DNA of 35,902 bases, from NCBI GenBank assembly GCA_900315435.1, contig OMYY01000035.1:1-35902 (forward strand), written 5' to 3'. Numbering within the stretch: the first letter of the stretch is position 1; the number at the start of each line of letters is the position of its first letter. The notes beneath the pieces were generated by a model that had not been told where the DNA came from, did not search any database, and worked only from the letters and a program-made list of their open reading frames with translations. A program made the translations under genes and the position numbers. Of the stretch, positions 8,445 through 26,075 are shown piece by piece. Source of the stretch: an uncultured Spirochaetaceae bacterium (GTDB lineage: Bacteria > Spirochaetota > Spirochaetia > Sphaerochaetales > Sphaerochaetaceae).

Positions 8445-10031
8445 TCAGTCCAGCACCTCTTCCTTCCAGTCCTGAACGGTGTGCCCCGTGGAGCTGAAGG
8501 CGATGCCAAGCAGGTGGATCGTCTTCCCCCGCTCCAGGCGGAACTTGTCGGCATAGTGTTTGTCCTTGATCTGCCTCAATGCTGCCTCGGCACTCTTGTC
8601 CGCCTTGAACTCCATCACGTATACATGCTCCCCCGCATCCACCGACAGGTCGATCCGCCCCTCGCTCGTCTGGTCCTCCGCCACGACCTTCACCGCCTTC
8701 CCGCACAGCAGCATCACCACGTCCACCACCTGCGCGAAGTCCGGCTCCTTCTTCCCCGCTCGGTACGGCACCGACGCGAAGATTGCCGTCAGCGTCTGCA
8801 TGTACCCCTGCGTGTCCCCCTTCCTCAGGGCAACCACCAGGTTCCGGATCACTACCCCGGATTCCCTCGAGCACCACCGGGTCAGAAGGTTCCGGTAGTA
8901 GGCCTCCCGCACTTCCTTGTTCGGAAAGCGAAGGTAGTACACCCCAAGCTCTTCGTCGTAGCCGCCCATGGTCAGGTACCCCGTCTGCAACAGGAACGCC
9001 TGCACCTCGTCCATATCCCCTTCGGCCTGGCTCAGCTCCGCCACGTCGAACGAGCTGAGCGCGTCGGCGCCCATGCCCTCCTTCAGGTCCTCTGTCACGT
9101 CAAGGTCAACCGACTGCGCCATGTCCATCACCAGCTTCGAGCTGCCTGTCTCGATCCAGTAGTCGTTGAAATCCTGCCCGCGGCCATTCGAGAAGAACAG
9201 GCCCACCGACACCGGGTTGTACACCGTCTCGCATCCCGGCGCGAACCGGTAGCCGTCGTACATCTCCCTCACCTTCGCAAGGTACGCCTCGCGGCCCATC
9301 CCCGTGTCCTTAATCCCCTGTTCGATATAGCCGGCGAAGTTCTCTTCCAGCTCTTTCTGGGTATACCCCAGCATCGTCGCGTACGCAGGCACCAGGCTCA
9401 GGTCGTTCAGGTTGCCCGGAGAACACCCCCATCTTCGCGTACTTCGTCACTCCCGTCATGAACACGAAACGGAGCAACCCCCCTTCGCCTTGATCACCTG
9501 GTAGAAGCCCCTCAGCGTGTCCCGCAGTTCCCCAACGTTCTCCGCCAGCGCGTTGTCCGACACCACCTTGTCGTACTCGTCGACCAGCACCACGACCTTG
9601 TCTTTCTTGGAAAGCAGCAGGATGAGCTTTGCGAACAGATCGTCGCTCGTCTTGGCCATGTCCAGCGGCCCGACCCCATACGAGTCGGCAACCTCCTCAA
9701 GCCGGTCCTTCAGCCACCCGTCAAGCGCATCTGCCGTCTTTTTCCAGCAGTTCGTGAAATCGATGTGGATGATAGGGTAGGTCTTCCAGTCGTAGTCCAG
9801 AGAATCGATGGCTAGACCCTTGAACAGTTCACGCTTTCCTTGGAAGATCGCTTCCAAGGTGGAGACGGTCAGCGTCTTTCCGAAACGGCGGGGACGGGAG
9901 AGGAAATACATGTCAGCCCCTGTCACGAGGCGATACAGGTACGCGGTCTTGTCCACGTACAGGTATCCTTCCTTCCTGACCATCTCGAAGGAACTGTACG
10001 ACGTCGTGATCTTCTGTTCGGTACCCTGCAT
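8445..10031 (-). pseudogene. AAA-ATPase / PD-(D/E)XK (DUF1703) protein gene broken by two indels
   Basis: The two halves together make about 529 codons, the full length of the AAA-ATPase_like plus DUF1703 family (PF09820/PF08011), which is common in multicopy in gut bacteria and of unsettled function. The N-terminal half (10031-9456) has the family Walker A variant RPRRFGKT and Walker B VVVLVDEYDK. The C-terminal half (from 9392 on) ends with the nuclease-like DAGEHVYVMEFK motif. Between them, TGA at 9456 interrupts the frame. The missing piece LLRFVFMTGVTKYAKMGVFSG is readable one frame over. A run of six Gs (9478-9483 on the opposite strand as Cs) should hold seven, and the family's SGLNNLND near 9415-9425 has lost about five bases. 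The outer halves are in the same frame. Confidence 0.85.
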
Positions 10032-10134
10032 GCCTCAAGCATACCACAGCAAAGCGCGAATAGCAAAAGAGCGACACGAAAGCCGCCTAAAGGATGCCCG
10101 ACACCCGGTTTTGCCACATTTCAGGCAAGCGAGA

Positions 10135-10165
10135 AGCACCCCGCGTGAACACACGCAGGGGTGCT
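10135..10165 (-). terminator. intrinsic terminator of the ten-gene carbohydrate operon
   Basis: Perfect AGCACCCC/GGGGTGCT outer stem extended by GCGTG/CACGC with one bulged base and an AACA loop. On the minus strand it is followed by TTCTCGCTT, a weak U-rich tail. It lies 14 bases after the dehydrogenase stop at 10179. Confidence 0.72.
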
Positions 10166-10178
10166 GGATGAGAATTCC

Positions 10179-11648
10179 TTACGCTTGTTGGAGGAAAGAA
10201 CGCAGAGCGCCCGCTATCCCCTTCTGCTCGATCGATGCGAGATCTCGGTCAAAATCGGCGCAGAGCGTTTTCATCTGCTCTCCGTTCAAACGGGAGACTC
10301 CGGCTCCGGACAGGAAAGCCTTCGCGTCATGGCAGGTGGCGGTCAGCTCATCACGTTTCGGGTCATCAATCGGAAGCGCGTTTCCCTCCTCGTCCTTGCC
10401 TTGGCAGAAACGGGCCCATCCAGCCAAGGCAAACACCATGGCATCGTGCTTCCTGCCGGAGAGGACCGCCTCTTCCAACGGCTTGATGATCGCGTTGGAG
10501 ATCTTCTTCGAGCCATCGCTGGCCAAGCGCAGGATCTTGTCGGCGATATACTTGTTGGAGAAACGGGAGAGGAGCTTGTCCTTGTAGGAGACCAGATCGA
10601 TGCCGGGAACCGGGGGCAAGGTCTGGGTAATCTCCTCCATATAGACGTCACGGATGAAACGGTGGATCAAAGGGTTGGTAGCCGCCTCGTCCACGTCGCG
10701 GATCCCCATCAGATAGGCCGGATAGGAAAGGGCGGAATGGCTGCCGTTGAGCAGTCTGATTTTCATCAGCTCATACGGCTCCACATCCTCTACCACCATC
10801 GCACCCGCCTTGCCATAATCGGGAATCTCGGTAGTCCGCTTGCCCTCGATGACCCACTGCAGGAATTCCTCGCAGTGTACCGGGCACTCGTCGCGGTAGC
10901 CACCCTTCTTCTCGATTGTCAGCTTATCCTCCTCGGTGGTTCCCGGAGTAATCCGGTCGACCATCGTACAGGGGAAGGCGACATGCTTCTCGACCCAAGG
11001 AAGGATCTGAGGGTACTTCTTCTCGCAGAACTGACGGACACAGCTCCAAAGCACCTTTCCGTTCGTCGGGATGTTGTCGCAGCTCATGATGGTCACAGGA
11101 GCGCCGATGGCCGCTCTCCTGGCCAATGCTTTGGAAAGGTAACCGACTGCGGTACGCGGGAAAGGATTCTTGTCCTCCACGTCGCTCCGGACGTCCGGAT
11201 TGTCCCAGTCCAGGGAATGGGTGTCGTCAAGATAGCAGTAGCCCTTCTCGGTGATGGTGAGGGTAATCAGCCGCACCGAAGGATCGGAGAGCTTGTCCAG
11301 CACGGTCTGAGGCTCCCATGAGGCATTGGCATAACCGATGATCGGGCCGTTGACCCGGATGCTCGAGCTACCGTCGCTGTCCCAGGAAAGAACCGAATAC
11401 AGGTAATCCTGTTTCTGCAAGTTGGCGATGAACTCCTCGCGGGCGGGGGGAATGTCCACCTCGAAGACGCCCCAATCCTTCACATCCCCTTGATTCAGCA
11501 GGGTATCGAGATAGGTAAGGTAATGGGCCCTGTGGAAGTGTCCAAGCCCGATATGGACCTGGCGCAAGGCAAGACGTGAGCGGTCATAGCTCGGAACCGA
11601 CGCGATGATCCCCTTCAAGGAAGCAACTGTCTTTTGCGAAAGCATCAT
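10179..11648 (-). CDS. mannitol/fructuronate-type polyol dehydrogenase
   Basis: 489 residues, the usual length of the long-chain mannitol dehydrogenase/UxuB family (PF01232 plus PF08125). Visible motifs are HIGLGHFHRAH (32-42) of the nucleotide-binding fold, TITEKGY (131-137), MSCDNIPTNG (188-197), FPCTMVDRITP (225-235) and the catalytic KIRLLNGSHSAL (Lys296, Asn301, His304). It oxidises a polyol or reduces a keto sugar or ketouronate with NAD(H). Similarity to UxuB is close in the motifs, but substrate cannot be told apart within the family. Start at 11648 follows AGGAGG at ten bases; a second ATG follows directly. It is the last gene of the operon. Confidence 0.88.
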   Translation of the reverse strand: MMLSQKTVASLKGIIASVPSYDRSRLALRQVHIGLGHFHRAHYLTYLDTLLNQGDVKDWGVFEVDIPPAREEFIANLQKQDYLYSVLSWDSDGSSSIRVNGPIIGYANASWEPQTVLDKLSDPSVRLITLTITEKGYCYLDDTHSLDWDNPDVRSDVEDKNPFPRTAVGYLSKALARRAAIGAPVTIMSCDNIPTNGKVLWSCVRQFCEKKYPQILPWVEKHVAFPCTMVDRITPGTTEEDKLTIEKKGGYRDECPVHCEEFLQWVIEGKRTTEIPDYGKAGAMVVEDVEPYELMKIRLLNGSHSALSYPAYLMGIRDVDEAATNPLIHRFIRDVYMEEITQTLPPVPGIDLVSYKDKLLSRFSNKYIADKILRLASDGSKKISNAIIKPLEEAVLSGRKHDAMVFALAGWARFCQGKDEEGNALPIDDPKRDELTATCHDAKAFLSGAGVSRLNGEQMKTLCADFDRDLASIEQKGIAGALRSFLQQA

Positions 11649-11695
11649 GGAAATACAACCTCCTCTGACAAGCCGGAACAAACATGCGCCGGCAA

Positions 11696-12025
11696 TCATT
11701 CCTTCAGCGCAATCGCGGTGGTCACCTCCACCGGCGACGCCTTCTCGGTCGTCAATACCAAACGCAACCATCCGCCGAACTCGCGCACACGGACAAAGAA
11801 ATCCCCTGGCTCCTTCATCAAAGGAAACTCGGTCCCCTCGTCGGCCCAGGCGATGCCGTCGACCGACATCTGCACCTTTCCATGGAGCGCCTGGTCCGGC
11901 CCGATCTTCTGGAGCTTTACCCAGACCTGGGCCTCGCTTGCCCAACCGCACTCGTAGGGTTCAGAGGCAAGCGTCCCCCCGAATTCCTTCATCCGATCAA
12001 GCACTACCGTATAGAATTGCCTCAT
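11696..12025 (-). CDS. uncharacterised 109-residue protein of the carbohydrate operon
   Basis: Begins MRQFYTVVLDRMKEFGGTL and is rich in short beta-like segments (QVWVKLQKI, KVQMSVDGIAW, DFFVRVREFGGWLRLVLTT). The -SVDGIAWAD-/-GGWLRLVL- pattern resembles a small beta-sandwich. No family name is recalled. The start at 12025 uses GGAGG eight bases upstream, which lies inside the end of the preceding gene, so the two are translationally coupled. No signal peptide. Cytoplasmic partner or structural accessory of the neighbouring DUF6772-like protein is a guess from coupling only. Confidence 0.72.
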   Translation of the reverse strand: MRQFYTVVLDRMKEFGGTLASEPYECGWASEAQVWVKLQKIGPDQALHGKVQMSVDGIAWADEGTEFPLMKEPGDFFVRVREFGGWLRLVLTTEKASPVEVTTAIALKE

Positions 12026-12028
12026 CGC

Positions 12029-12964
12029 TTAATCCTCCCAATCCATAGAATTGACCATAGAATCAACGGAAAGAAAGACACGTCGGTTGGTGTCACTCTC
12101 AATAAAGACCACAGGGTTCAGCAAGTTGTCGATCCTCGGGAACCGGGGATTTGTCGTCGCCGCAATACCCCTGAGGTCCCACCTCCTGTTCATCGAGCAA
12201 AGCTCGACGTACTCCTTCTTGCGCATGTCGACAGTCAGAGCGAAATACTGCCAGTTGATCTTGTCCGGCGTCTCGTTGTAGCACATCTTCTGGGTGCTGT
12301 CCGGCACATCCCAGTAGCCATCACTGCCCCCCTGCTCGTCACGATTGCCCAACCACTGGGTATCGACACCGCGGAGCAAGGTCACCTGCTCGTCCTTGTC
12401 GCCCGGCGCACTCACCCCCTCGTACCCCCATGGCTTGGTACTTGCCGGGTCGGCGCGGAAAATCTGCCAGTGCTGCCGCATCTTCCCGTTGGCGCAGTTG
12501 ATGTACCGGGCACCGTAGTAGGTGCGGTTGGTCTCGTTCTGGCTGTCCCAGAAGAATCCGAAGGCGCGGATTGCGTTTTCGCCGATACCGGGACGGTCCT
12601 GCTCGGCGGTGATGGCATACCACATCTCGCACTTTAAAAGACCCTCGTGGCGATGGGTGATGCGCTTGATCGCCATACCCATGGAGCCAGCTACCGGACG
12701 CTCCTGCGCCGGAGCGGCGATCGGGCGGCTTGCCACCTTCATCGAATAGGTGCCATGTAACGAACCATGGGTGCCGGCATACGTGTAGGTCGACGAAGAA
12801 AGCATCGGAGGCCCCCACTCCGTCCATCCCTTCATCTGCGGATAGTAGGCAAAAGCGTCCTGCCTGAAATTCGGATTCAATGCAATCCAGCCATTGTAGC
12901 CCGTGTCGAAATCATCCGCGAACAGCACATGTCTGAGCGGCTCGTAATCAGTAAGATCCATCAT
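12029..12964 (-). CDS. uncharacterised beta-rich protein, possibly DUF6772
   Basis: 311 residues beginning MMDLTDYEPLRHVLFADDFDTGYNGW. The opening VLFADDFDTGYNGW and later aromatic-rich segments (TYTYAGTHGSLHGTYSMKVAS, GFFWDSQNETNRTYYGARYIN, INWQYFALTVDMRKKEYVEL) look like a concanavalin-like beta-sandwich. I believe this matches the family named DUF6772, found in sugar-utilisation clusters, but this is from memory and unsure. No signal peptide is present, odd for a lectin-like fold, so it should work in the cytoplasm. The ATG at 12964 overlaps the HAD gene stop and follows GGGAGG at seven bases. Confidence 0.75.
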   Translation of the reverse strand: MMDLTDYEPLRHVLFADDFDTGYNGWIALNPNFRQDAFAYYPQMKGWTEWGPPMLSSSTYTYAGTHGSLHGTYSMKVASRPIAAPAQERPVAGSMGMAIKRITHRHEGLLKCEMWYAITAEQDRPGIGENAIRAFGFFWDSQNETNRTYYGARYINCANGKMRQHWQIFRADPASTKPWGYEGVSAPGDKDEQVTLLRGVDTQWLGNRDEQGGSDGYWDVPDSTQKMCYNETPDKINWQYFALTVDMRKKEYVELCSMNRRWDLRGIAATTNPRFPRIDNLLNPVVFIESDTNRRVFLSVDSMVNSMDWED

Positions 12965-13575
12965 CTGCAATCCTCCCAAACCCCCAGAGCGTCTAGCCGC
13001 TTCCGTAGGGCGTCAGTGTCAGTAAAGCGGAAAGCTTCGAGTCCCACCGCACGGGCAGCCTCGACGTTCTTTTCCAAATCATCGGTGAAAAAAGCCTCTT
13101 CCGGAGGATATCCCTCCTTTCGAAGTATCTCCTGATAGAAAGCGGCATCCGGCTTGGCAAGGTGCATTTCGCAGGAGATATAGGCTTTGTCAAAGACGTC
13201 GTAGCGATGGTTGGCGCGGTTGACCTCCAGGAAACTGGGAATCAGGTTGCTGCCTGCGACCACGCGCTTTCCCGCACCCCGCAGGTCGCGGATCACCTCG
13301 GAGACGCCGGGGATGTAGGCAGTCTTGTAAAAACGGCCGACAAGTCCATCCCTCCAAGGAATCGGACTGCCAAACTCGATGGAGATTTCGTCCCAGAATG
13401 CCTTTTCGGTGATGGCACCACGGGAAAAGGCTTCGACGGCCTCGTTCGAGCGCGGTCCGAAAGAGCGGATGCTTCGCACCCCATCATGCCCAAGCGAGGC
13501 AAAGAACTCCTCCCAGACCTTCTCTGAAAACAGGACTCCGCCGCAATCGAAGATGAAAAGAGAAGGAGTCTTCAT
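12961..13575 (-). CDS. HAD-superfamily phosphatase, YihX-like
   Basis: 204 residues, Rossmann-type HAD hydrolase with a small helical cap. Motif I is FDCGGVL with nucleophile Asp10; the second position usually held by Asp is Gly12, as in the YihX glucose-1-phosphatase type (FDLGNV). Motif II is VVAGSN near 105, motif III the Lys of LAKPDAAFYQ near 142, motif IV FFTDDLEKN near 165. Probably dephosphorylates a sugar phosphate of the pathway encoded by this operon. Start overlaps the preceding stop as ATGA. Confidence 0.85.
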   Translation of the reverse strand: MKTPSLFIFDCGGVLFSEKVWEEFFASLGHDGVRSIRSFGPRSNEAVEAFSRGAITEKAFWDEISIEFGSPIPWRDGLVGRFYKTAYIPGVSEVIRDLRGAGKRVVAGSNLIPSFLEVNRANHRYDVFDKAYISCEMHLAKPDAAFYQEILRKEGYPPEEAFFTDDLEKNVEAARAVGLEAFRFTDTDALRKRLDALGVWEDCR

Positions 13576-14318
13576 ACCGCCTCCTCCGGCGCCACCAGCC
13601 GATAAACGGCGCTACGGCCGTGACGGAGGTTCAAGCCGGTGATCAGTTGATTTCCCTCACCCCGGTACAGCCCCTCGGACTCCCCAAATCCGGAGAAGCA
13701 GACGTCGTCCACCACTTTCCCGGAGTGCAAGTCGTAGTCGATGAAGCGGGTGGTCGCCGAATCCCCGCCATCATTGGAGGTGATGAAGAGGTCATCCCCG
13801 CGGACGGCGCATCCCTGCACGAACCTGTGGTGTTGCGGCAAGGTGAAGAGCGGCTTGACCTCGCCTTTTTCGAAATCGAATCGAGCGACAGTCATTTCCG
13901 TACGTTGGTCCAAAGCAATCGCCTGAACCAGGACGAGCAACAAGGTTCCCTCCTTGCTCCAAGCACAACTGGCAGTCCGGAACCCGGGAGTATGCAAGAG
14001 CCAGCGTTGCGTGACCGAATTCGATGACCGGTCGAAACGGCACAAGGACGGCGATTCCCGCCCGGTATCCACTTGGATGAAATATGATCCATCAAGTTCC
14101 GTGTCATTGGCGTGATAGAGGTCGCCACGCACGACGTCCTCGGAAACTAGTTCTCCATTGCGGTACCGCTGTACGATCGAATCGTGATAGAAGGCATAGA
14201 GGATGCCTCCATAGAGGGCGACGCTCTGAATGGATGTCCCCCTCTGGTTGGGTTGCAACCCGAACAGCGGGACAAGCGACCAAGTGCCTTTCTGTCCTTC
14301 TGCATGGAATGTGTTCAT
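13572..14318 (-). CDS. uncharacterised beta-propeller-like protein
   Basis: 248 residues with repeated short beta-rich blocks ending in Asp-containing turns (GGILYAFYHDS, GSYFIQVDTGRES, GTLLLVLVQAIALDQ, GDDLFITSNDGGDS, HSGKVVDDVCFS), the look of a propeller. No signal peptide and no known catalytic motif. GGAGG lies eight bases before the ATG, and the ATG overlaps the lacI stop (ATGA). Not recognised as a named family; it could bind a sugar or act as a lyase/isomerase scaffold, but nothing visible decides. Confidence 0.68.
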   Translation of the reverse strand: MNTFHAEGQKGTWSLVPLFGLQPNQRGTSIQSVALYGGILYAFYHDSIVQRYRNGELVSEDVVRGDLYHANDTELDGSYFIQVDTGRESPSLCRFDRSSNSVTQRWLLHTPGFRTASCAWSKEGTLLLVLVQAIALDQRTEMTVARFDFEKGEVKPLFTLPQHHRFVQGCAVRGDDLFITSNDGGDSATTRFIDYDLHSGKVVDDVCFSGFGESEGLYRGEGNQLITGLNLRHGRSAVYRLVAPEEAV

Positions 14319-15352
14319 CTGACTGTCCTCCGGTCCTTCACGCTCTCCCTGGGAACAATCCCAATGGGGACGCTGATTACCGTTTTCTCCCCGTGGCTCT
14401 TCTTCTCAGAGACCATGCGCAGCATCATGTCGGCCGCCAATCTTCCGGAAAGCTCACGATTCAGGTTCACGGCCGTCAACGCCGGCGAAGCATAGCTGCA
14501 GAGGAAGGAATCGTCAAAGGAAAGCACCGAAACGTCGTCAGGCACGGAGATGTGCCGCTCATAGAAGAAGCGCAGCGCACCCAGACCCATGATATCGTTG
14601 GCCATCACCGCGTCGAAGGGTCCGTTGGAATCCCAGACGGACTTTACCGCGGCGCGTCCCCCCTCGCCCGAGTTGCTTTGTGGAGACACCAACGTGACCG
14701 TTCCCTCGAGAAGTCCCTGGTGTTCGCAGAACTCGGCGACCGCCTTCTTACGGATTTCCGCCGTGCCGTATCCGGCCGGGGAATTGAGGCAGAGAATCCG
14801 CTTGTGTCCCTTGCCGAGAAGATATCTCAGACCAAGCACGGAACCGGCCCCATAGTCGGTGAAGACGTTGTTTTCTTGTTCCATTTGCTGTCCGACCACC
14901 ACGACAGGCAACCCCAGCCGCCCGGCGGCACTGATGAGCGAGTCCATCTGGGCAGTGCCGATGAGAAAGACGCCATCGACACACCTTCGGCGTAGAATCC
15001 ACGGCTTTTCCTCGCTCGGCGACCAGTAGGCGGAAAGCAAACCGTAGTTCGTGTCGACCAATCCTGCAAGGATGCCGTCCGTGGCATCGCGTGCGAAGGT
15101 GTTGGCCTCATGACCAAAATCATAGGTCGAGATATGGGGAATGACGGTACACTCGATCACGCCGAGATTGTAGGTCCGGCTCTTGATCAAGCCACGGGCG
15201 GTGGTGTTCGGAACATAGCCGATCCGTTCCATCGCATCGAGTACCGCCTTGCGCTTCGACTCGCTGATATGAGGACTGTTGTTCAGCACGAGGGAAACGG
15301 TACTCTTGGAAACATTCGCCTCATGCGCGACATCAATAATTGTCTTCGCCAT
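14315..15352 (-). CDS. LacI/GalR-family transcriptional regulator
   Basis: 345 residues with an N-terminal LacI helix-turn-helix (TIIDVAHEANVSKSTVSLVLNNS, about residues 4-26), a hinge helix with NTTARGLIKSRT and a periplasmic-binding-protein-like effector domain ending in the usual NREL-GRLAADMML segment. Dimers of this family bind palindromes centred on CpG. Three TGGAACGTTCCA palindromes with that symmetry lie at the two importer operons in this window, and this is the only LacI-type gene here, so it is the likely regulator of both (inference). It is the fifth gene of the operon it would control, giving autoregulation. AAGGAG lies eight bases before ATG. Confidence 0.92.
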   Translation of the reverse strand: MAKTIIDVAHEANVSKSTVSLVLNNSPHISESKRKAVLDAMERIGYVPNTTARGLIKSRTYNLGVIECTVIPHISTYDFGHEANTFARDATDGILAGLVDTNYGLLSAYWSPSEEKPWILRRRCVDGVFLIGTAQMDSLISAAGRLGLPVVVVGQQMEQENNVFTDYGAGSVLGLRYLLGKGHKRILCLNSPAGYGTAEIRKKAVAEFCEHQGLLEGTVTLVSPQSNSGEGGRAAVKSVWDSNGPFDAVMANDIMGLGALRFFYERHISVPDDVSVLSFDDSFLCSYASPALTAVNLNRELSGRLAADMMLRMVSEKKSHGEKTVISVPIGIVPRESVKDRRTVR

Positions 15353-15364
15353 CCTGTTCGCTCC

Positions 15365-16678
15365 TTAGTCGAGTACTGCTCCCATCCGCTTGAGTTCTTT
15401 CACAAGACGGCCGGTATCGATCTTCTGGACCGGCTGCTTTTCGTCCAGACTTTGGGCGGCGGCGACTCCGACGGCCTGACCCATCCCCATGCAACTGGAC
15501 TGCACCCGCAGGGACGCGAAGGCAGTCCGGTCTGCCGAGACCGTCCGTCCCGCCACCAGCAGGTTCGGGAAATCTGCCGGAACCAAGGCCCGATAGGGCA
15601 CATAGGCCGCCTGCTTGATGAAGGTACAGGACTGCCGCGCACCATCAGTCGTGTGGATATCAACCGGATGGGCACAGCGCGAAACACTGTCCGGATACTT
15701 GACGCCCGCCAGGTATTCCTCGCCGGTTATCGTGTGGAGTCCGACGATATTCCTGCTTTGTCGATGGCCTGCCTGGACCGCGGTGGCGGCGACATAGCTG
15801 TGGCGGAATTCCTTGAACTGTTTCCTCAGCAGGTCGGCGAACAAGAAAATCTCCTCGCGCATCCTATCCTGGGCATCGGTGAAGGCACGATTATCGCACT
15901 CGTCCACCTCTGCACGGGTCATGTTGACCATCACCGAACCCTCGTGGGTCGTGGTGCAGAACCATGGACCGCCGAAGAGGGGCAGCTTCATCGTCCTGGA
16001 AAGCTCCAACAACCTCTCGCGCACAGGAAGGCAGTGGCAGTTCACCCCCTGCAGGTGATGGTGCATCGCCTTTTTCACCAGGTGGGACTTGGTGTCGACC
16101 CCATTGAGCATGAAACAGTAGGAAGCTGGCTGGAGCGGATAGCGCTTCGTCCACTCCTGCATCGGCACTCCCACCGCGGCTGCGATATCGGCGTCCCCAG
16201 TGGCGTCGATAAAGCACGTTCCCCCCACAGCCTCGAGGCCGTTCTTGTTGGCAAAGACTACCGCCTTGATGGTACGCTCCTCGCTCACCACCTGGGTAAC
16301 ATAGGAGTTCATGTACAGGGCGATTCCTTCTTCCCGGACCATACGTTGCATGCAGAGCTTGTAGCGTTCCGGATCGAAGGCAACATTATGCAGAGGCTGC
16401 TCGATGCAGGCGCCACCCATGCGCTCCAACCGCTGGACGAACTCCCACGGGATACCTCCCGTGGTGGGCTGCCCGTTATAGCTGAATACGGAGAGAGGCA
16501 ACACGTAGGCCGCAGTGGCCATGCCGCCAAAGAACCCGTACCGTTCCACCAAGGCAACCTTGGCTCCATGACGGGCCGCTGCGATGGCTGCCATGCACCC
16601 GGCAGGGCCACCACCGGCAACGACAACATCATACTCCCCGACAACAGGAACCGTTGCCGACATTGCTATGTGCTTCAT
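15365..16678 (-). CDS. FAD-dependent oxidoreductase (FAD_oxidored family)
   Basis: 437 residues. Dinucleotide-binding motif YDVVVAGGGPAGCMAAIAAA from about residue 16, the FFGGMAT flavin-contact motif near 50, DATGDADIA near 175 and a C-terminal LLVAGRTVSADRTAFASLRVQ segment, all typical of PF12831-type oxidoreductases. These oxidise an unknown small molecule, often in sugar or polyol clusters. Here it sits between the importer genes and the regulator, and a pathway starting with oxidation of an imported sugar, then NAD-dependent reduction or oxidation by the 10179 dehydrogenase, is plausible but unproven. Start at 16678 uses GAGAGGG at eight bases. Confidence 0.85.
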   Translation of the reverse strand: MKHIAMSATVPVVGEYDVVVAGGGPAGCMAAIAAARHGAKVALVERYGFFGGMATAAYVLPLSVFSYNGQPTTGGIPWEFVQRLERMGGACIEQPLHNVAFDPERYKLCMQRMVREEGIALYMNSYVTQVVSEERTIKAVVFANKNGLEAVGGTCFIDATGDADIAAAVGVPMQEWTKRYPLQPASYCFMLNGVDTKSHLVKKAMHHHLQGVNCHCLPVRERLLELSRTMKLPLFGGPWFCTTTHEGSVMVNMTRAEVDECDNRAFTDAQDRMREEIFLFADLLRKQFKEFRHSYVAATAVQAGHRQSRNIVGLHTITGEEYLAGVKYPDSVSRCAHPVDIHTTDGARQSCTFIKQAAYVPYRALVPADFPNLLVAGRTVSADRTAFASLRVQSSCMGMGQAVGVAAAQSLDEKQPVQKIDTGRLVKELKRMGAVLD

Positions 16679-16746: not shown

Positions 16747-17586
16747 CTACTCTTTGATGCCGCTCCTTGCAATTCCTTCGACAAAATATCGTTGGGAAAA
16801 AAGGAAAATAATCAAGATGGGAATAATCGCACTTGTCGCTGTCGCCATCGTCAGTTCGTATCTCTGCGCCTCGTCCAGCATCCACCAGCGGATGGCCTGG
16901 CTAATCACATATTTCTTCGGTTTGACAAGGAATATCAGAGGACTCAGATAATCATTCCAACTGCCGATAAAGGACAGGATGCCCATGGAAACAAGAGATG
17001 GGACTGTTAACGGAAGCATGATCCGAAGCCAGATGGTCCAATGTCCTGCGCCATCCACCTTCGCTGCATCGACCAAGTCCCTTGGCAGAGCAAGGTAAGC
17101 TTGTCGAAGGAAGAAGATTGCAGTCGCACCAAACAGTTCGGGAAGGATCAGTGCCCAGAGCGTATTGTAGAGCCCCATGGTCTTGAACATCATGAAGCGT
17201 GGAATGATGGTCACCTGTGTCGGAATCATTAGCGAACTCAGAATCAGGATGAAAAAGATTCTCTTTCCACAAAACTCGATACGTGCGAAGGCATAGGCTG
17301 CCAGCGAAGCAAAGAACAGTTTGACAGTCGAAGCAACAACAGCGACGATGATTGAATTCAGAAAGACATGCGGTAACGGCAGTTCCTCGGAATTCCAGAC
17401 CATCCGATAGTTCGACCAACGAAGGGGTGGGACAATCCATCGGAAAGGAGAGCTGAAAACGTCACGAGTACCTTTTAAGGATGAGGAAATCATCCACAAC
17501 AGCGGGAACAGGAAAAGCAGTGCGACAAAAGCAAGGATCATTGTCTTGGCAACCAGCTTGGGTGCAAATTTCTTTTGTGCCATCAT
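16747..17586 (-). CDS. carbohydrate ABC transporter permease, MalG-like
   Basis: About 279 residues with six hydrophobic segments and the EAA coupling loop DAAKVDGAGHWTIWLRIMLPL near residue 185. This is the CUT1 second permease. The frame begins GTG-ATG-ATG-ATG; the Shine-Dalgarno GAGAGG ends at 17593, touching the GTG, so one of the later ATGs (17589, 17586 or 17583) is the real start; 17586 is given. It pairs with the permease at 17596 and the binding protein at 18512. The importer has no ATPase gene nearby, as for many CUT1 systems served by a shared ATPase. Confidence 0.9.
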   Translation of the reverse strand: MMAQKKFAPKLVAKTMILAFVALLFLFPLLWMISSSLKGTRDVFSSPFRWIVPPLRWSNYRMVWNSEELPLPHVFLNSIIVAVVASTVKLFFASLAAYAFARIEFCGKRIFFILILSSLMIPTQVTIIPRFMMFKTMGLYNTLWALILPELFGATAIFFLRQAYLALPRDLVDAAKVDGAGHWTIWLRIMLPLTVPSLVSMGILSFIGSWNDYLSPLIFLVKPKKYVISQAIRWWMLDEAQRYELTMATATSAIIPILIIFLFSQRYFVEGIARSGIKE

Positions 17587-17595
17587 CATCACCTC

Positions 17596-18492
17596 TCAAT
17601 CGTAGTTGACCCATCTTTTCTCAAGGGTAAAATTAATTACCGTCGCCAAGAGAATCAGAGCGAGAAGCACAAGAGCCTTTGCGCTCGCATATCCAAACCG
17701 ATACCGGACAAAAGAGCTTTGATAGATCTCATTCACCATTGATGTGTTCGACTCGTTATACGTGCCGATTGTCATGATATTGACCGATGAGAAAATTTTG
17801 AAAACAGCAATGACACGGACAACAAGCAGGTAGAAGGTCGTCGGAGTAATCATTGGGAAGGTGATGTCCCAAAACTTCTTCCAGCCATTTGCACCCTCCA
17901 AGTCAGCCTCCTCGTACAACGATTTGGGGACGTTCTGCAGAGCCGCCATATAAATTATCAGCTCGTAACCGATAGTCGTCCAAATGGAAAGAAGACAAAT
18001 CGGAATCTTGTTTAATGCGGTGCTGTCCATCCAAGCCGGACCAGTTTTCAACAGATGAAGTACCTCTACCAGCAAATAGTTGCAAATACCGTCATCCCTG
18101 AACATGAACTTGAACACCGCCGCGAGCGCAACTTGGCTCGAGATGTACGGGATGAAGAAGATGAAGCGGAGCACATTCTTCGCGTACACCCGTGAGTTTA
18201 ATGCATAAGCCAGAAACAGTGCGAAGAGAATCGACTCGGGCACAATTCCCACAACGTAGACGAACGTATTCTTCAAGGCATAGATGAAATGCCTATCGTG
18301 AGCGAGTTCACGGAAATTCTCCAGCCCCGCGAACGTAAGGCCTTGTACTCCGCTCAGGAAGTTCCAATCCGAGAAAGCCAAGAGGATGGAACTGCCAATC
18401 GGAAACAAGAAGAATACCGCGAATACGGCAATTGTCGGCGCTATGAACAGATAGCCGGCTAAATTCTCATGCACTGTTTCCTTCCTAGTCAT
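17596..18492 (-). CDS. carbohydrate ABC transporter permease, MalF-like
   Basis: 298 residues with six membrane segments and EAA loop EEADLEGANGWKKFWDITFPM near residue 205, the CUT1 first permease. N-terminal MTRKETVHENLAGYLFIAPTI is typical. AGAGGTG lies five bases before the ATG. It is 19 bases after the binding-protein stop and directly followed by the second permease. Together they carry an unidentified sugar or oligosaccharide across the inner membrane. Confidence 0.91.
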   Translation of the reverse strand: MTRKETVHENLAGYLFIAPTIAVFAVFFLFPIGSSILLAFSDWNFLSGVQGLTFAGLENFRELAHDRHFIYALKNTFVYVVGIVPESILFALFLAYALNSRVYAKNVLRFIFFIPYISSQVALAAVFKFMFRDDGICNYLLVEVLHLLKTGPAWMDSTALNKIPICLLSIWTTIGYELIIYMAALQNVPKSLYEEADLEGANGWKKFWDITFPMITPTTFYLLVVRVIAVFKIFSSVNIMTIGTYNESNTSMVNEIYQSSFVRYRFGYASAKALVLLALILLATVINFTLEKRWVNYD

Positions 18493-18511: not shown

Positions 18512-19939
18512 TCACTTGCTTTTCTTGGAAAGCTCAAGCTTGATTGCCGCATCGGCATCAGCCTGCATGCGCGCCATACCCTCATCAATCGAGCACTGGT
18601 CATGGGCTATATCCATGGTATAAGTGGTAGCGGCCTTATTCACGTCAGGGTAAGCGGTAATGATATCTTCGTAGAAAGCAGGGTTCTTATAATTGACAAC
18701 GACTCTCTGAAATGAATCGACATCAATCAGTTGCTTCGCATTCTCCTCGCTTCCGAAGACCAAATCGACCAAGTCGGAGGTATCAGTGTACTTCCAGGTG
18801 GATTGATGACCTGCGACAATCAGATAGCGGGAACCGTAGGTGGCATAGAATTTGGTGAAAGCCCAGATTGCCTCCCAGTCTTTCTTGCTGGAGTTCACAC
18901 TTATGCCAACATGGGAGTATGGGGAGACCCCTGCCATATAGTTGGTCTGCCCCTTCTCCATCACAGGCCAAGGAGCAAAATAATTCACCCAGTCAATCGG
19001 ATAGTTCTCCTTGTCACGAATAAAACGAATCATGTTTGGAGTGATTGCAGAGGCACTCTGGCCAGCCATATAGACCATCTGGGTCTGGATGTTGTCGGAT
19101 CGATACTTTGACAACGGGAACCAAATTTTTTCGACATTGTCTGCCTGGTAACGGATTTCCATCCCCTTCTTCATGATTGGGTCACCAAAACGGGAGAGAC
19201 CATCATCACCGTAGTAGGGGTTCCGCCCATAGACTTGGGCGCCGACGAAACTCCAGTAGTTGATTGAATGGTAGTCCGTCCCGCCATAAACAGTAGTATT
19301 GCCACTGGCATCCTTTTTGGTCATCTTCCGGCAAACGTCGAGATATTCGTCCCAAGTCCACTCGGTGGGAATGGCTCCAAGACCAGCCTCATCCCAAGCC
19401 TTCTTATTGATAACGATATAATAGGATAGACCTCCACAGGGGAAAGAATAGGTCGTATCCTTGTACCTGTATTTGTCGGTACCCCAATTCTCGACCAGGT
19501 CGATTCCCTCTTTCCGCATCAGGTCATCAAGAGGAATAAACATGTTATTGACCCATCGATTGTAGGTGGCATTCAGCCCAAACGACGCCAGGACATCAAT
19601 GTCTCCAGCCATCAGAGCGGTGTTGACTCCGAGATTTCCGTCCGTGTTGTTGTTAAAAGGAGTTAGCTCGACCGTTACATTGGGATAATATTTGTTGAAT
19701 TCGGCAATCATCGCATTCATGCCAGCAGGACCTTTGAACGGAATCCAAAAGCGAACGGTACCCTTCACGCTTGCAGGATTTTTTGCAAACACCCAAGCAT
19801 GGTCTGCAGCATCCGCAGGAAGTATGACTGCAGGAGTTTGGGCCTGGGCAGATACCACGGTCGGTTCTTCGCCCTTACCGTTTCCGAACGCCATAGTGGT
19901 GGCAAGTACCACAGCCATGAGAGCAACTAGTTTTTTCAT
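18512..19939 (-). CDS. extracellular sugar-binding protein (CUT1)
   Basis: 475 residues. Signal peptide MKKLVALMAVVLATTMAFGNG with no lipobox cysteine, so it would be cleaved by signal peptidase I or kept as an anchor. The mature part has the family 1 solute-binding pattern (GTVRFWIPFKGPAGMNAMIAEFNKYYPNVTVEL, then PFNNNTD and DIDVLASFG). It captures a sugar for the two permeases that follow. GGAGGG lies six bases before the ATG. First gene of the ten-gene operon, preceded by an operator at 19960 and a promoter with an overlapping operator at 20153. Confidence 0.9.
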   Translation of the reverse strand: MKKLVALMAVVLATTMAFGNGKGEEPTVVSAQAQTPAVILPADAADHAWVFAKNPASVKGTVRFWIPFKGPAGMNAMIAEFNKYYPNVTVELTPFNNNTDGNLGVNTALMAGDIDVLASFGLNATYNRWVNNMFIPLDDLMRKEGIDLVENWGTDKYRYKDTTYSFPCGGLSYYIVINKKAWDEAGLGAIPTEWTWDEYLDVCRKMTKKDASGNTTVYGGTDYHSINYWSFVGAQVYGRNPYYGDDGLSRFGDPIMKKGMEIRYQADNVEKIWFPLSKYRSDNIQTQMVYMAGQSASAITPNMIRFIRDKENYPIDWVNYFAPWPVMEKGQTNYMAGVSPYSHVGISVNSSKKDWEAIWAFTKFYATYGSRYLIVAGHQSTWKYTDTSDLVDLVFGSEENAKQLIDVDSFQRVVVNYKNPAFYEDIITAYPDVNKAATTYTMDIAHDQCSIDEGMARMQADADAAIKLELSKKSK

Positions 19940-19959: not shown

Positions 19960-19973
19960 TTGGAACGTTCCAA
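19960..19973. promoter_or_regulatory. LacI-type operator, copy 1 (5' leader)
   Basis: Perfect palindrome TTGGAACGTTCCAA centred on CpG, 20 bases before the binding-protein start and about 175 bases inside the transcript from the 20153 promoter. It could block elongation or loop to copy 2. Confidence 0.82.
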
Positions 19974-20152
19974 ATTGCCAACAAAAAAATTTCCCTCTTC
20001 TTCACGAGAAAGAAAGATTCTTTCGTACGACTCGTGGGCAGGATTCTCTTTTCCTCTTTTCCATGAAACAAACCGATCCTCAAATGCATCCATCCGAATG
20101 TTGGTTCGACAATACCGTTACTTGGAAAGCAATAACGATGAGGTTTCAATAA

Positions 20153-20181
20153 ATAGTATTATGGAACGTTCCAAACGTCAA
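20153..20181 (-). promoter_or_regulatory. promoter of the ten-gene operon with operator copy 2 in its spacer
   Basis: Minus strand: -35 TTGACG (20176-20181), 17-base spacer, -10 TACTAT (20153-20158). The spacer holds the palindrome TGGAACGTTCCA (20162-20173), so a bound repressor would exclude RNA polymerase. Confidence 0.8.
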
Positions 20182-20311
20182 CAAGAAAATTCCCTTTTCG
20201 ATTCGAGGCACATGCATCAAAAAAATGAAGAAAGATTTTTGGGAGCAAAGATGGCTCCACACCAATTCCCTCCCTCGGCCGAGGGAGAGGATCGGTGCGG
20301 GAAACCCACCA

Positions 20312-21865
20312 TTATTTCTTCGAATCCAGGTAGGACTGCAACTCTGCCCTCACCTGCTCACCACCGGCGGCCGTCCAGTCTTTCTGGAAAGACGACAGGT
20401 CGTTGATGGTGCGGGTTCCAGCCATGATCTGGAAGATGAAATCGTTGACATTGTTGCTCAGCGTGGTCTCGTACTTCGCGTAGTTCGGGGAAGCCGGCAT
20501 GAACGAGAAGTAGGCTGGCACGAAGACTTCCGGATGCTTCTTGCTGAAGTCGATGGTGACCGCGTTGAAAGCCAGCCACTGGGCGGCGGACTTGCGGATG
20601 CGGCTCGGCCACTGCCATTTGTATGCCTCGGCATCGGTGGCATCGATGTAGTAATAGGAGTCACCTCTCTCGTCAGCGAAGATCGGGTTGATGGGGATGA
20701 TCGAATGGTCGTTCGGATCCCACTTAAAATGCGTCCCCTCGACACCGATATTGATGAACAGCTGGTCCTTGACCTTCAGGTTCATCCAGTTGACCGCGTC
20801 AGCCGGATGTTTGCTGCCACGCAGAACCGCGGACACGTGGTTGATTGCCGTCGTCTTCATGTACTTGCAGGTACCGTCAGCGCCGAACAAAGCGGAGACA
20901 AAGCCGAAGTCGTCGTCGGACAGACTATAGGTCTTCTTCAGGGCAGGAATGGCGTTCTGGGCGAGAGAACGGTCGGCGCATGCCATGATCGCCTTACCGG
21001 AAGCGAACTTCTCGGAGACACTCGTGGTGGTGTTGGCGGCCCAATCACTGTCGAAGAGCCCCTCCTTGGAGCATTTGGTCAGGAACTCGACCATCTCCTT
21101 GAACTTCGGATGCTCGGTCAGGTAGATGACCTTGCCGTTGTCATCGACCATCCAGTCATTGTAGATGCCGAAGGCGCAGGCGATGTTCATCGGGAAGTTC
21201 AGGTTGACGATACCCTCCGACGCGGCGTTGTACGGTCCGCAGAGCAGGATGTACTTGTCGCCATAATAGCTCTTGAGCTTGCTCATCGTGGCATACAACT
21301 CGTCGATCGTGGTCGGTACCTTGTCGATGCCGGCCTGGCGGAGCAGGTCCATGCGGACGATGATGAACTTCGAGATTTCGGTGTCATACGGATACATGTA
21401 CGGAACGCCGTAAATGGTTCCCTTGCCATCGGACAAGGTATCCCAGGTTTCCTGGGAGTTGCCTTTGAGGATATCCTGGCCATACTTGTCCAACAGATCG
21501 TTCAGCGGCAACAGGGCATTTTTGGAAAGCAACGTGCGGAACTGGTTCAACGACAGGTTGACGATGTCATAGTCCGCTCCGGAGGCGACGTCCATCAACA
21601 GCTTCTGGTCAGGATTCTGAGCAGGAAGCATGGAGAACTCCACCTTGTATCCGGTCGATTTCTCCATGACCGGGACCATGTAGTCGGTGTTCACGTCGAA
21701 ACCGGTATTGTAGCCAAGCCGTTTCAGCGTGACATTGCCTGGTCCGAGCAACTCGCTTGCCCCGCCCTTCTTTTCCGGCGCTTTCGCCGAACCTTCCGAC
21801 GATCCTTGAGCAAACACAGCCAGCGCGCTCAAAAGTACCACAGGAATCAGAAAATGTCTTTTCAT
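20312..21865 (-). CDS. extracellular solute-binding protein, LplA/YtcQ-like
   Basis: 517 residues, long-type binding protein of the LplA/YtcQ group that serves uronide or complex glycan-derived oligosaccharide importers. Signal peptide MKRHFLIPVVLLSALAVFAQG without a lipobox cysteine. The mature part has NVTLKRLGYNTGFDVNTDYMVP, an ASGADYDIVNLS block near residue 100 and YGVPYMYPYDTEI near 150, as seen in this group. AGGAGG precedes the ATG. It is third in its operon after the LplB- and YtcP-like permeases. Confidence 0.88.
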   Translation of the reverse strand: MKRHFLIPVVLLSALAVFAQGSSEGSAKAPEKKGGASELLGPGNVTLKRLGYNTGFDVNTDYMVPVMEKSTGYKVEFSMLPAQNPDQKLLMDVASGADYDIVNLSLNQFRTLLSKNALLPLNDLLDKYGQDILKGNSQETWDTLSDGKGTIYGVPYMYPYDTEISKFIIVRMDLLRQAGIDKVPTTIDELYATMSKLKSYYGDKYILLCGPYNAASEGIVNLNFPMNIACAFGIYNDWMVDDNGKVIYLTEHPKFKEMVEFLTKCSKEGLFDSDWAANTTTSVSEKFASGKAIMACADRSLAQNAIPALKKTYSLSDDDFGFVSALFGADGTCKYMKTTAINHVSAVLRGSKHPADAVNWMNLKVKDQLFINIGVEGTHFKWDPNDHSIIPINPIFADERGDSYYYIDATDAEAYKWQWPSRIRKSAAQWLAFNAVTIDFSKKHPEVFVPAYFSFMPASPNYAKYETTLSNNVNDFIFQIMAGTRTINDLSSFQKDWTAAGGEQVRAELQSYLDSKK

Positions 21866-21909
21866 GTAAAACCCTCCTCCTTTTTCTATTCCTCAACACA
21901 TATCGTGTG

Positions 21910-22827
21910 TTAACCTTTGACAGATCCCAAGGTGATGCCTTGCACCACGTAGCGCTGGACGAACGGGTAGAGCGCCACAATCGGGATGATCGAGAGCGTG
22001 ACCGCGGCGGCAGTGACACCCTGCGTGGTGATGTTGGCCTCGTAGTTGCCCTGGGCCGAGCCCAAAGCGGCTCCAGCAAGGTTCTCCAGCACCGACTGCC
22101 CATTCTGGATCAGGTCGTACAAGTAGACCTGAAGCGTACGCATCGATGCGCTCTTCGTGTACATCATCGCATGGAAGTAATTGTTCCAGTAGTTGACCGC
22201 GTACAACAGGCCGACGGTCGCCAGGACCGACTTGGACATCGGCAGCACAATCTGGCAAAGAGTCTGCGTGTCGGTCGCCCCGTCGATGGTCGCCGCCTCG
22301 GATACACTCTCGGGCAGCCCCTCGAAGTAGCTCTTCATGACGAACATGTTGAAGTGGACGATGGCGAACGGCAGGATCAGAGCCGCGTACGTGTCCAGGA
22401 TTCCAAGGGAGTTGACCACCATGTAGGCAGGAACGATACCCCCAAAGAAGACCATGCTGAAGACATAGAGCATGATGATGAACTTGCGTCCTGGCATGTG
22501 GGTCTGCGCAAGCGGATAGGCGGTCGTGATGGTGGTGAACATGCTGACCAAAGTGCCGATGATGGTGACGACCAGACTGTTCTTCAAGGCATTGAAAAAG
22601 GCGGTCTTCTTGACGATGTACCCCATGGTGTCCCACTGGATCTGGCGGGGCCAGAAGGCAATCTCTCCCGTGGTGACCAAGGTGCCGTTGCTGATGCCGG
22701 TCGAGAAGATGTTCAGGCATGGCAGGATGCAGATGAGCGCGAAAGCGGTCATCAGCACGTACGAGAGGATCCCAAACACTCGCTCGGAAAACGAAGCAGG
22801 CTTCAGATGTTTCACTTGGTGTCTCAT
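21910..22827 (-). CDS. ABC transporter permease, YtcP/LplC-like
   Basis: 305 residues with six membrane segments and EAA loop EAATIDGATDTQTLCQIVLPMSK near residue 190. The N-terminal FGILSYVLMTAFALICILPCLNIF is typical of the YtcP group. The open frame starts at 22833 but the Shine-Dalgarno GGGGGG touches that ATG; the ATG at 22827 is six bases from it and is preferred. It works with the 22840 permease and the 20312 binding protein. Confidence 0.89.
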   Translation of the reverse strand: MRHQVKHLKPASFSERVFGILSYVLMTAFALICILPCLNIFSTGISNGTLVTTGEIAFWPRQIQWDTMGYIVKKTAFFNALKNSLVVTIIGTLVSMFTTITTAYPLAQTHMPGRKFIIMLYVFSMVFFGGIVPAYMVVNSLGILDTYAALILPFAIVHFNMFVMKSYFEGLPESVSEAATIDGATDTQTLCQIVLPMSKSVLATVGLLYAVNYWNNYFHAMMYTKSASMRTLQVYLYDLIQNGQSVLENLAGAALGSAQGNYEANITTQGVTAAAVTLSIIPIVALYPFVQRYVVQGITLGSVKG

Positions 22828-22839
22828 GTCCATCCCCCC

Positions 22840-23784
22840 TTACCAGATACTGCGGCCGAGCAACTTCTTGCTTGCCGTGTTGGCGCCGACAATCAGGATG
22901 AAGGCGACGACGGAATTGAACAGGCCGAGCGCGGTAGCCAACGAGAAGTTCGCCTGACCAAGACCGATGCGGTAGACATAGGTCTGGATGATATCAGCGA
23001 CGTCATAGACAGCCGGGTTGTAGAAAATCAAAACCTGCTCGAAGCCGGTGTCGAGGATATAACCGACCTTCAGGATCAGCATCAGCACGATTGTCGGCAG
23101 CAGGCCAGGCAACGTCACATGCCAGATCTGGCTTACCTTCGAAGCACCATCGATACGGGCAGCCTCGTAGAGGGTCGGGTCGATAGAGGTCATGGCGGCC
23201 AGGTAGATGATGGTGTTGTAGCCGATTTCCTTCCACCCCTCGGTGAAAACCAGTACCCCGCGGAACACCTGCGGGTCGGAGAAGAACATGATTCTCTTGA
23301 GGCCAAGCGAGGAAAGCCACTGGTTCACCAGCCCGTAGGAACCCAAGATCGAATAGAAGACACCATAGATGACGACCCAGGAAAAGAAGTAGGGAACGTA
23401 GATTGCGGTGGAGACCGTCTTCTTCCAGATGCCGTTATGGATCTCGTTGATCATGATGGCGGCAAGGATCGGAATCCAGAACAGGAAGAGGATCTTCATC
23501 AGGTTGATTTCCAACGTGTTGAGGAAGACCGTCTTGAACTGCGAAGAGCTAAAGAGCTGCCTGAACCACTTCAGCCCGACCCATGGGCTCTTGGCGACAG
23601 CGTCAATCGGGTTGCTGCCTGCGAAGATGTCGTAATCCTCAAAAGCCATGAGCAGGCCGTACAGGGGTCCGAACTTGTAGACGAAGACAAAGAAAAGGCC
23701 GGGCAAAAGCATCAGGTACATCGCCGGATGGCCCTTCACCCATTTCCACTTTTTCCGAAGAGCATACGCTTGTTGCCTAGCCAT
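22840..23784 (-). CDS. ABC transporter permease, LplB-like
   Basis: 314 residues, first gene of the second importer operon. Six membrane segments and EAA loop EAARIDGASKVSQIWHVTLPGL near residue 210. The N-terminal basic stretch followed by MYLMLLPGLFFVFVYKFGPLYGLLMAFEDY matches LplB/YteP permeases. AGGAG lies nine bases before ATG. Two promoters with operators precede it. No ATPase gene is adjacent. Confidence 0.9.
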   Translation of the reverse strand: MARQQAYALRKKWKWVKGHPAMYLMLLPGLFFVFVYKFGPLYGLLMAFEDYDIFAGSNPIDAVAKSPWVGLKWFRQLFSSSQFKTVFLNTLEINLMKILFLFWIPILAAIMINEIHNGIWKKTVSTAIYVPYFFSWVVIYGVFYSILGSYGLVNQWLSSLGLKRIMFFSDPQVFRGVLVFTEGWKEIGYNTIIYLAAMTSIDPTLYEAARIDGASKVSQIWHVTLPGLLPTIVLMLILKVGYILDTGFEQVLIFYNPAVYDVADIIQTYVYRIGLGQANFSLATALGLFNSVVAFILIVGANTASKKLLGRSIW

Positions 23785-23825
23785 TCGATTCCACTCCTTT
23801 TGTCCGAGGAAAGCACTTATGCCTC

Positions 23826-23853
23826 ATTGTAAATTGTTTGTAACAAACGTCAA
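23826..23853 (-). promoter_or_regulatory. proximal promoter of the LplB operon with a different palindrome
   Basis: Minus strand: -35 TTGACG (23848-23853), 16-base spacer, -10 TACAAT (23826-23831), about 40 bases before the ATG at 23784. The spacer holds a 13-base palindrome GTTTGTAACAAAC (23836-23848), unrelated to the LacI-type operators, suggesting a second regulator. Confidence 0.7.
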
Positions 23854-23995
23854 TATTATTTTTATAAACATGAATCCGAAGAAATGATTGTTGCTTTCGC
23901 TCATTTATCGGTCAAAATGTCCACAAAAGGCATCGTACATCGGTTCCACTCCCCACGACCAGGAGCAAAAGGATCCAATCCCTAGTTGTAAAAAA

Positions 23996-24024
23996 ATGGT
24001 ATTATGGAACGTTCCAGCTGTCAA
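23996..24024 (-). promoter_or_regulatory. distal promoter of the LplB operon with LacI-type operator copy 3
   Basis: Minus strand: -35 TTGACA (24019-24024), 17-base spacer, -10 TACCAT (23996-24001). The spacer holds TGGAACGTTCCA (24005-24016). The layout is the same as at 20153, with matching flanking bases (TATTA before and GTCAAC after on the plus strand). Confidence 0.8.
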
Positions 24025-24820: not shown

Positions 24821-25272
24821 TGGTGCTCCTGCTTGCCTGCCAACCCCTCTACGCCCATGGCATTACCGCAACCGCGGGCATTTCCCGGTCTGGAAAACGA
24901 TGCCAACCGGTGTTCACTACGGCGCTTGCCCTGCAGGGAAAGGCAGGATCCTTGGTGGGACGCTTCTCGATTCCCGCCCGTTGGGCCCTTGCCGGAAACG
25001 TCGACCATTTCCGCGCATTGAGGGAACACCATGGCCTGGGGGTGGCACTCGCGTTCGGCTGGCAGGAGGAGCATTGGAGCCTGCTGGTGGAGGGAAGCTC
25101 GATGCGCCTCTGGACCAGGGGTGACGGGGTGAGCCTGCTGTACGCAATGACCCTGATTCCGGGTATCAAAGCGATCCCCTGCTGCTCGTTCCTTCTGCCG
25201 TTGTCCGTGGAATGGCACAGCGGCGTCACCACCCTCCACACGTCCTTCGGCGTCCATGTGGAACTACCATGA
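24802..25272 (+). CDS. small exported protein of unknown function
   Basis: 156 residues with a clear signal peptide (MRKRTVMVLLLACQPLYAHG, cleavage likely after YAHG or near residue 19). The mature part has alternating beta-like segments (GVALAFGWQEEHWSLLVEGSSMRLW, SFLLPLSVEWHSGVTTLHTSFGVHVEL), which could be a small beta-sandwich or part of a membrane barrel. Not recognised. GAGGAG lies five bases before ATG; it overlaps the TnpB-like gene by 19 bases and its stop overlaps the caspase gene start (ATGA). Confidence 0.72.
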   Translation: MRKRTVMVLLLACQPLYAHGITATAGISRSGKRCQPVFTTALALQGKAGSLVGRFSIPARWALAGNVDHFRALREHHGLGVALAFGWQEEHWSLLVEGSSMRLWTRGDGVSLLYAMTLIPGIKAIPCCSFLLPLSVEWHSGVTTLHTSFGVHVELP

Positions 25273-26075
25273 TCCGGATGATGTTCCTCATGGGATTGCT
25301 CTGTGCCTCCTGCGCCCTTCCCGGACCGGAGCTTCCCGGCATGGTGCATATTCTTTCCATTGGCATTTCTTATGAGGGAACTGACGCGCAACGTCTCCGC
25401 GGAACGTTGAATGACGCAAAAGAGTTGCTCGCCGCCTTCTCGCAACGCTACAAGACATGCACCACCCAATTGCTGGTCGAGGAAACGGCGACCAAAGAGC
25501 ATGTCGTACAGGCCTTGTCCATGATGCCCGACGGGGAGCTGGCCATCATCATCTACAGCGGCCACGGGACGAAGGACGGCAGTTGGGTGCTTCGCGACCC
25601 GGAGGGAAGACAATTCGGGGATGATGGCAAGGTGAAGCAAGAAAACCTGCTCGCCCCGGATGAGCTTTGGCGGATTCTTGACTGTCGCCCGGAACCCGTG
25701 CTGGTGGTCAGCGACAGCTGCTACAGCGGGAACCTGCTTCCCGCCAGCGCTTCGGTCTCCTCCCCCAACGACAAGGAATGCGAACTCTCGCTAGGCTCCT
25801 GTCCGGACTCGCGGTTCGCCCTCGTCTGCACCACCCGGGAAAACACCGGCAAAGAAGACAGGGAAAGCCACCGGCACGGGTATTTCTCCCGGGCTTTGCT
25901 CGGAGAGCTGGGATGGGACCATGAGCAGGAAAGACTTGCCGCCCCTCCCCGGGCCATCTCCCTGGACAGCCTGTACGAGGGGGTGCTCCATAGGCAGGAA
26001 CTGGCAGTGGACGGGCCAGGAAGGAACAGCCAGCACCCCGTGGTCAGCCCTGGTCCCTGGGAACTTTGGCTTTAG
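25269..26075 (+). CDS. caspase-fold (C14-like) lipoprotein
   Basis: 268 residues. The start MIRMMFLMGLLCASC is a lipoprotein signal with Cys15 as the probable lipid site, so the protein should be membrane-anchored outside the cytoplasm. The rest is a caspase-like peptidase domain: HILSIGISYEGTDAQRLRGTLNDAKEL (27-53), IIIYSGHGTKDGSW with His99 and VLVVSDSCYSGNLL with Cys151, the catalytic His/Cys dyad, then ALVCTT...ENTGKEDRESHRHGYFSRALL (about 195-220), as in metacaspase-like proteins. The ATG overlaps the previous stop. It could cleave an envelope protein; substrate and activation are unknown. The 3' end overlaps uvrB by four bases, tail to tail. Confidence 0.85.
   Translation: MIRMMFLMGLLCASCALPGPELPGMVHILSIGISYEGTDAQRLRGTLNDAKELLAAFSQRYKTCTTQLLVEETATKEHVVQALSMMPDGELAIIIYSGHGTKDGSWVLRDPEGRQFGDDGKVKQENLLAPDELWRILDCRPEPVLVVSDSCYSGNLLPASASVSSPNDKECELSLGSCPDSRFALVCTTRENTGKEDRESHRHGYFSRALLGELGWDHEQERLAAPPRAISLDSLYEGVLHRQELAVDGPGRNSQHPVVSPGPWELWL

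Follow-up and report, generated by a model that had tools for sequence, protein, structure and literature searches.

The window (the whole stretch of 35,902 nt that was analysed) carries a run of leftward genes for two sugar importers, a LacI-family repressor and a set of catabolic enzymes. The genes and sequence features of this run are listed below in the direction of reading, all on the minus strand. G083 refers to the genome of a sister species (a Spirochaetales MAG, contig JAQYHB010000003.1).

24005..24016, minus strand: putative operator O1, a copy of TGGAACGTTCCA within the 17-bp spacer of the importer 1 promoter
23826..23853, minus strand: second promoter-like element of importer 1, TTGACG-16-TACAAT, nearer the gene than the O1 promoter
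22840..23784, minus strand: importer 1 permease (BPD_transp_1)
21910..22833, minus strand: importer 1 permease (BPD_transp_1)
20312..21865, minus strand: importer 1 solute-binding protein SBP1 (SBP_bac_1)
20257..20300, minus strand: strong hairpin after SBP1, z -4.4
20162..20173, minus strand: putative operator O2, a copy of TGGAACGTTCCA within the 17-bp spacer of the promoter of importer 2 and the catabolic genes
19961..19972, minus strand: putative operator O3, a copy of TGGAACGTTCCA that lies 201 bp further downstream than O2, within a promoter-like frame that is degenerate
18512..19939, minus strand: importer 2 solute-binding protein SBP2
17596..18492, minus strand: importer 2 permease (UgpA-like)
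16747..17592, minus strand: importer 2 permease, of which an 18-codon remnant is present in G083
15365..16678, minus strand: FAD-dependent oxidoreductase (PF12831)
14315..15352, minus strand: LacI-family repressor gene
13572..14318, minus strand: conserved protein, no Pfam match
12961..13575, minus strand: HAD-family hydrolase
12029..12979, minus strand: DUF6772 protein
11696..12025, minus strand: small protein of 109 aa, whose start codon adjoins the DUF6772 stop
10179..11648, minus strand: mannitol/fructuronate-type dehydrogenase, which closes the run and whose start codon is inferred

SBP1 is distantly similar to AlgQ1/AlgQ2 and other family 1 solute-binding proteins. Since a strong hairpin separates them, importers 1 and 2 probably form separate transcription units within one regulon, and a hairpin similar to the one after SBP1 is readable in G083. 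A search for comparable pathways anchored on the DUF6772 protein turned up no further spirochaete among 393 genomes. Outside the run, an AAA-ATPase_like/PDDEXK_9 gene (window 8445-10031) lies in two frames split at about 9392-9456 and is probably broken; the gene at window 25212-26075 has a domain of caspase type (Peptidase C14), and the translation of its neighbour reads like UvrB.

TGGAACGTTCCA is an even palindrome of 12 bases with a central CG (TGGAA-CG-TTCCA), a form that is the commonest among LacI-family operators (1173 of 1303 regulators, PMC4052901). A search of the whole window placed exact copies at 19961-19972, 20162-20173 and 24005-24016, and the three sites are identical, as the original prediction had stated. 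That prediction also placed copies in 17-base spacers of leftward promoters with similar flanks, which is borne out for the copies at 24005 and 20162. The O1 promoter reads TTGACA (24024-24019), 17 bp, TACCAT (24001-23996), and the O2 promoter TTGACG (20181-20176), 17 bp, TACTAT (20158-20153); both run leftward and are good matches. The flanks of O1 and O2 agree at 15/20 downstream and 11/20 upstream positions. The distance to the respective start codon is 220 nt for O1 and 222 nt for O2, which places both farther upstream than most LacI-family sites, more than 75% of which lie 30-140 bp upstream (PMC4052901). The leaders between have no Rfam match and weak folding z-scores (-1.5 and -1.6), and homology between leaders 1 and 2 was not found outside the promoter modules.

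The second promoter-like element of importer 1 contains a palindrome of its own, GTTTGTTACAAAC (13 nt, 23836-23848), which differs from TGGAACGTTCCA, is unique in the genome and is fully conserved in G083. It is possibly the site of another regulator. Thus importer 1 may have another input, because O1 lies far upstream and a nearer promoter-like element carries GTTTGTTACAAAC. An extended reading would put importer 1 under two independent switches, the promoter with the LacI operator and the promoter with GTTTGTTACAAAC, give O3, within a leader of 200 nt, the dedicated task of a roadblock, and make the LacI a new orthologous group that has an operator type to itself. We hold this combination to be possible but lean against it.

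The site O3 was described in the original prediction as lying 20 bases before the first gene, and it does adjoin the SBP2 start codon (19939), at a distance of 21 nt; a promoter-like frame at the same place had been missed. The frame consists of TTGGCA (19981-19976), 17 nt, and ATAAAT (19958-19953), the last a poor -10 box that runs into the Shine-Dalgarno sequence of SBP2. O3 could therefore be a functionless relic of a duplicated promoter-operator module, with O1 and O2 doing the work: the TTGGCA box is kept in the same 17-nt frame as in the intact modules, the -10 is poor, and the upstream flank resembles that of O2 at 10/20 positions (null P ~0.03). However, the 12-mer is perfect amid degenerate flanks, which suggests selection for binding, and we regard the relic as rather unlikely. 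No sequence orthologous to O3 remains in G083. A possible role for O3 as a binding site is that of a roadblock to elongating polymerase.

The putative regulator of these sites is the LacI protein encoded at 14315-15352. It has an N-terminal helix-turn-helix (HTH; PF00356, 63 bits) containing NVSKSTVSLVLN and a ligand domain resembling periplasmic binding proteins (PF13377, 104 bits). The hinge that follows the HTH is canonical, PNTTARGL, aligned to the ARGL of CcpA; it has the Leu that in this family inserts at a central CG, and a hinge of this type predicts a central CG in the operator (PMC2978694). In the LacI family, the linkage is between residues 15/16 and operator bases 5/4 and between residue 20 and base 6 (Camas et al., PMC2978694); at these positions the protein reads K-S...L. 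Two E. coli K-12 regulators serve for comparison. TreR has K-S...R, with GGGAACGTTCCC upstream of treB, and MalI has V-S...L, with TAAAACGTTTTA in its intergenic region. At positions 5 and 4, GG suits K-S, as in TreR, and at position 6 the change from G to T suits that from R to L, as in MalI. In support of the pairing, TGGAACGTTCCA is what mixing the TreR and MalI operators would predict.

The residue/base code does not hold one-to-one in every case: near a KS...R regulator of another spirochaete (L078) lies TGCAACCGGTTGCA. One other KS...L regulator was found (in genome G446, with an unusual hinge), and no TGGAACGTTCCA lies near it. Results of the code on further spirochaete KS...L and KS...R regulators are mixed, and these are too few. 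As a separate observation, the G446 regulator has TTCGAACGTTAAACGTTCGAA, an odd wide palindrome, right before its start (L074:8336-8356).

The sites could instead serve as operators for a LacI-family regulator whose gene lies elsewhere in the genome, with the LacI of the run doing something else. The protein had been proposed as the sole candidate regulator in view; no other LacI is indeed encoded in the window, but LacI-type HTHs number 18 in the genome, the one in the operon and 17 others. Against an outside regulator, the recognition residues K-S...L are present in the operon's own LacI and in none (0/17) of the others. In addition, TGGAACGTTCCA is confined to this locus, as is expected of a local regulator: the genome-wide search proposed with the original prediction returned three exact copies in the whole 2.8 Mb (2,803,951 bases), 3/3 at this one locus, and no further copy. 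A genome of the same genus, G082, is without this LacI and also without the site. An outside regulator is thus quite improbable.

Comparison with relatives points the same way. The LacI orthologue is found in 2 of 139 genomes of the family, this one and G083, and two further weak matches in the family are about 30% identical. Outside the genus, no orthologue was detected at E < 1e-40 in 393 genomes of the phylum; elsewhere the match is only partial, at 25% identity. Promoter copies of TGGAACGTTCCA number three here and two in G083, and each other family copy examined falls within coding sequence. Site and LacI orthologue therefore co-occur only in this genome and G083 out of the 139, and the comparison with an orthologous regulator's motifs, also proposed at the outset, gives one genome that has this LacI and carries the site twice. 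The locus was found in one sister species only, so the depth of footprinting is small.

Within that depth the two G083 copies differ in what they can tell. O1 is conserved together with its flanks, but the stretch around 24005 is ~95% identical anyway. The probable counterpart of O2 is at L040:7370. There G083 is without a 3.6-kb segment with importer 2 and has instead ~140 bp that include one perfect TGGAACGTTCCA, upstream of the FAD gene and, by eye, in a 17-bp promoter-like spacer (TTGAAA, TATCAT) with changed flanks. A remnant of the importer 2 permease, GKAICWWMPNETQKHE, was detected in G083 by local comparison (L040:7276-7329, 54 bp, 80% identical, E 6e-10). Because the segment is missing and a permease remnant is present, importer 2 was most likely lost in G083, and the promoter-operator there most likely serves the FAD gene directly after that loss. 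The intact 12-mer amid nearly wholly changed surroundings is the best footprint available for the putative operator.

SBP2 is absent from G083 and has a 67% identical relative in G121, a genome of another genus. The importer 2 relatives of G121 (62-67% identical) stand beside FAD oxidoreductases, without LacI or operator; importer and enzyme type therefore travel together while control differs. The window region 9750-16000, with LacI and the catabolic genes, is 96-100% identical to G083, including 3.25 kb at 100%, vs 80-94% for most flanking genes beyond the importers. This suggests that this lineage and that of G083 recently exchanged DNA and that a breakpoint of the exchange falls within the FAD gene.

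The original prediction also raised the possibility of DNA looping between copies. O2 and O3 would be bridged by the repressor, as in the lac operon, and at 201 bp their spacing comes to 19.1 helical turns, nearly an integer; near-integral phasing alone, however, has a chance of ~1/4. The LacI protein ends about where the core of E. coli LacI ends, and the C-terminal tetramerisation helix is absent. Since that helix is missing, one dimer is unable to hold two operators at once. The looping claim is not sustained on the protein sequence, and a loop at this locus is very unlikely.

The remaining alternative, that the three copies are a coincidence of chance or repeat origin, is negligible and was rejected on the copy counts in window, genome and family: single exact copies do occur by chance in ~1/6 of family genomes, but here three lie within 4.1 kb, each in a promoter region of the same run of genes, vs 0.01 expected per window, and no longer repeat was found around them. 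None of 100 shuffles gave three copies (0/100), and TGGAACGTTCCA is the sole recurring perfect 12-nt palindrome within the window. The genome-wide motif statistics are from pattern searches, with ~0.15 copies expected genome-wide from base composition. A wider regulon beyond the locus was also considered and rejected: sites with one mismatch elsewhere in the genome number seven, all within open frames of at least 100 aa. The predicted regulon is strictly local. A literature search on GGAACGTTCC returned nothing concerning this system in titles and the openings of abstracts.

Taken from the sequences, the three palindromes are very likely the operators of the LacI encoded in the run, which would make both importers and the downstream genes a local, autoregulated regulon. 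Dimers of the LacI family routinely repress from a promoter spacer and are released by ligand. In the absence of the sugar ligand, dimeric LacI would sit between the -35 and -10 boxes at O1 and O2 and block polymerase. O3 would be a second, probably auxiliary site, acting as a roadblock to leaky transcripts. Binding of ligand would free all three sites, so that importers, enzymes and repressor are induced together. Because O2 is upstream of the LacI gene, the repressor would be negatively autoregulated. The prediction of one regulon over both importers and the pathway is thus supported by the sites, by the fit of K-S...L and by the co-occurrence in G083.

This arrangement has parallels in described systems. 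As in the local LacI-family sugar regulons of Ravcheev et al. 2014 (PMC4052901, RegPrecise), the LacI gene lies within its target run and would regulate itself, the operator is an even palindrome with a central CG, the targets are sugar ABC importers and catabolic genes, and there is more than one site per regulon; the orthologous group here, in contrast, is found in two genomes only. The TreR/treB system of E. coli shares K-S at two base-reading positions and the core of GGAAC followed by GTTCC, but differs in the R at the third position, the outer base G, the trehalose-PTS target and another ligand domain. The MalI system (malI-malX) shares L at the third reading position, the outer T and the central AACGTT; its two sites between divergent promoters, as read from K-12, are a further likeness. 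In MalI, by contrast, the first reading position is V, not K, the half-site has AA, not GG, and the targets are different.

The E. coli lac operon has three operators for one repressor, the main one at the promoter. The present locus is alike in the number of operators per repressor and in the main sites at promoters, but the repressor has no tetramerisation tail, the sites are identical rather than graded, and two separate promoters are served. The finding, then, is real, its main interpretation is very probably right, and it represents ordinary biology of a known type of control.

The locus provides a clean predicted pair of operator and regulator for a LacI orthologous group found in two spirochaete genomes. 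Co-regulation would tie uncharacterised genes, i.e., the FAD oxidoreductase, the DUF6772 protein, the HAD hydrolase and the mannitol-type dehydrogenase, to sugar uptake, and G083 shows a putative promoter-operator that was retained although the gene behind it was lost. If importer 1 does have two switches, this spirochaete could run it without the rest of the pathway.
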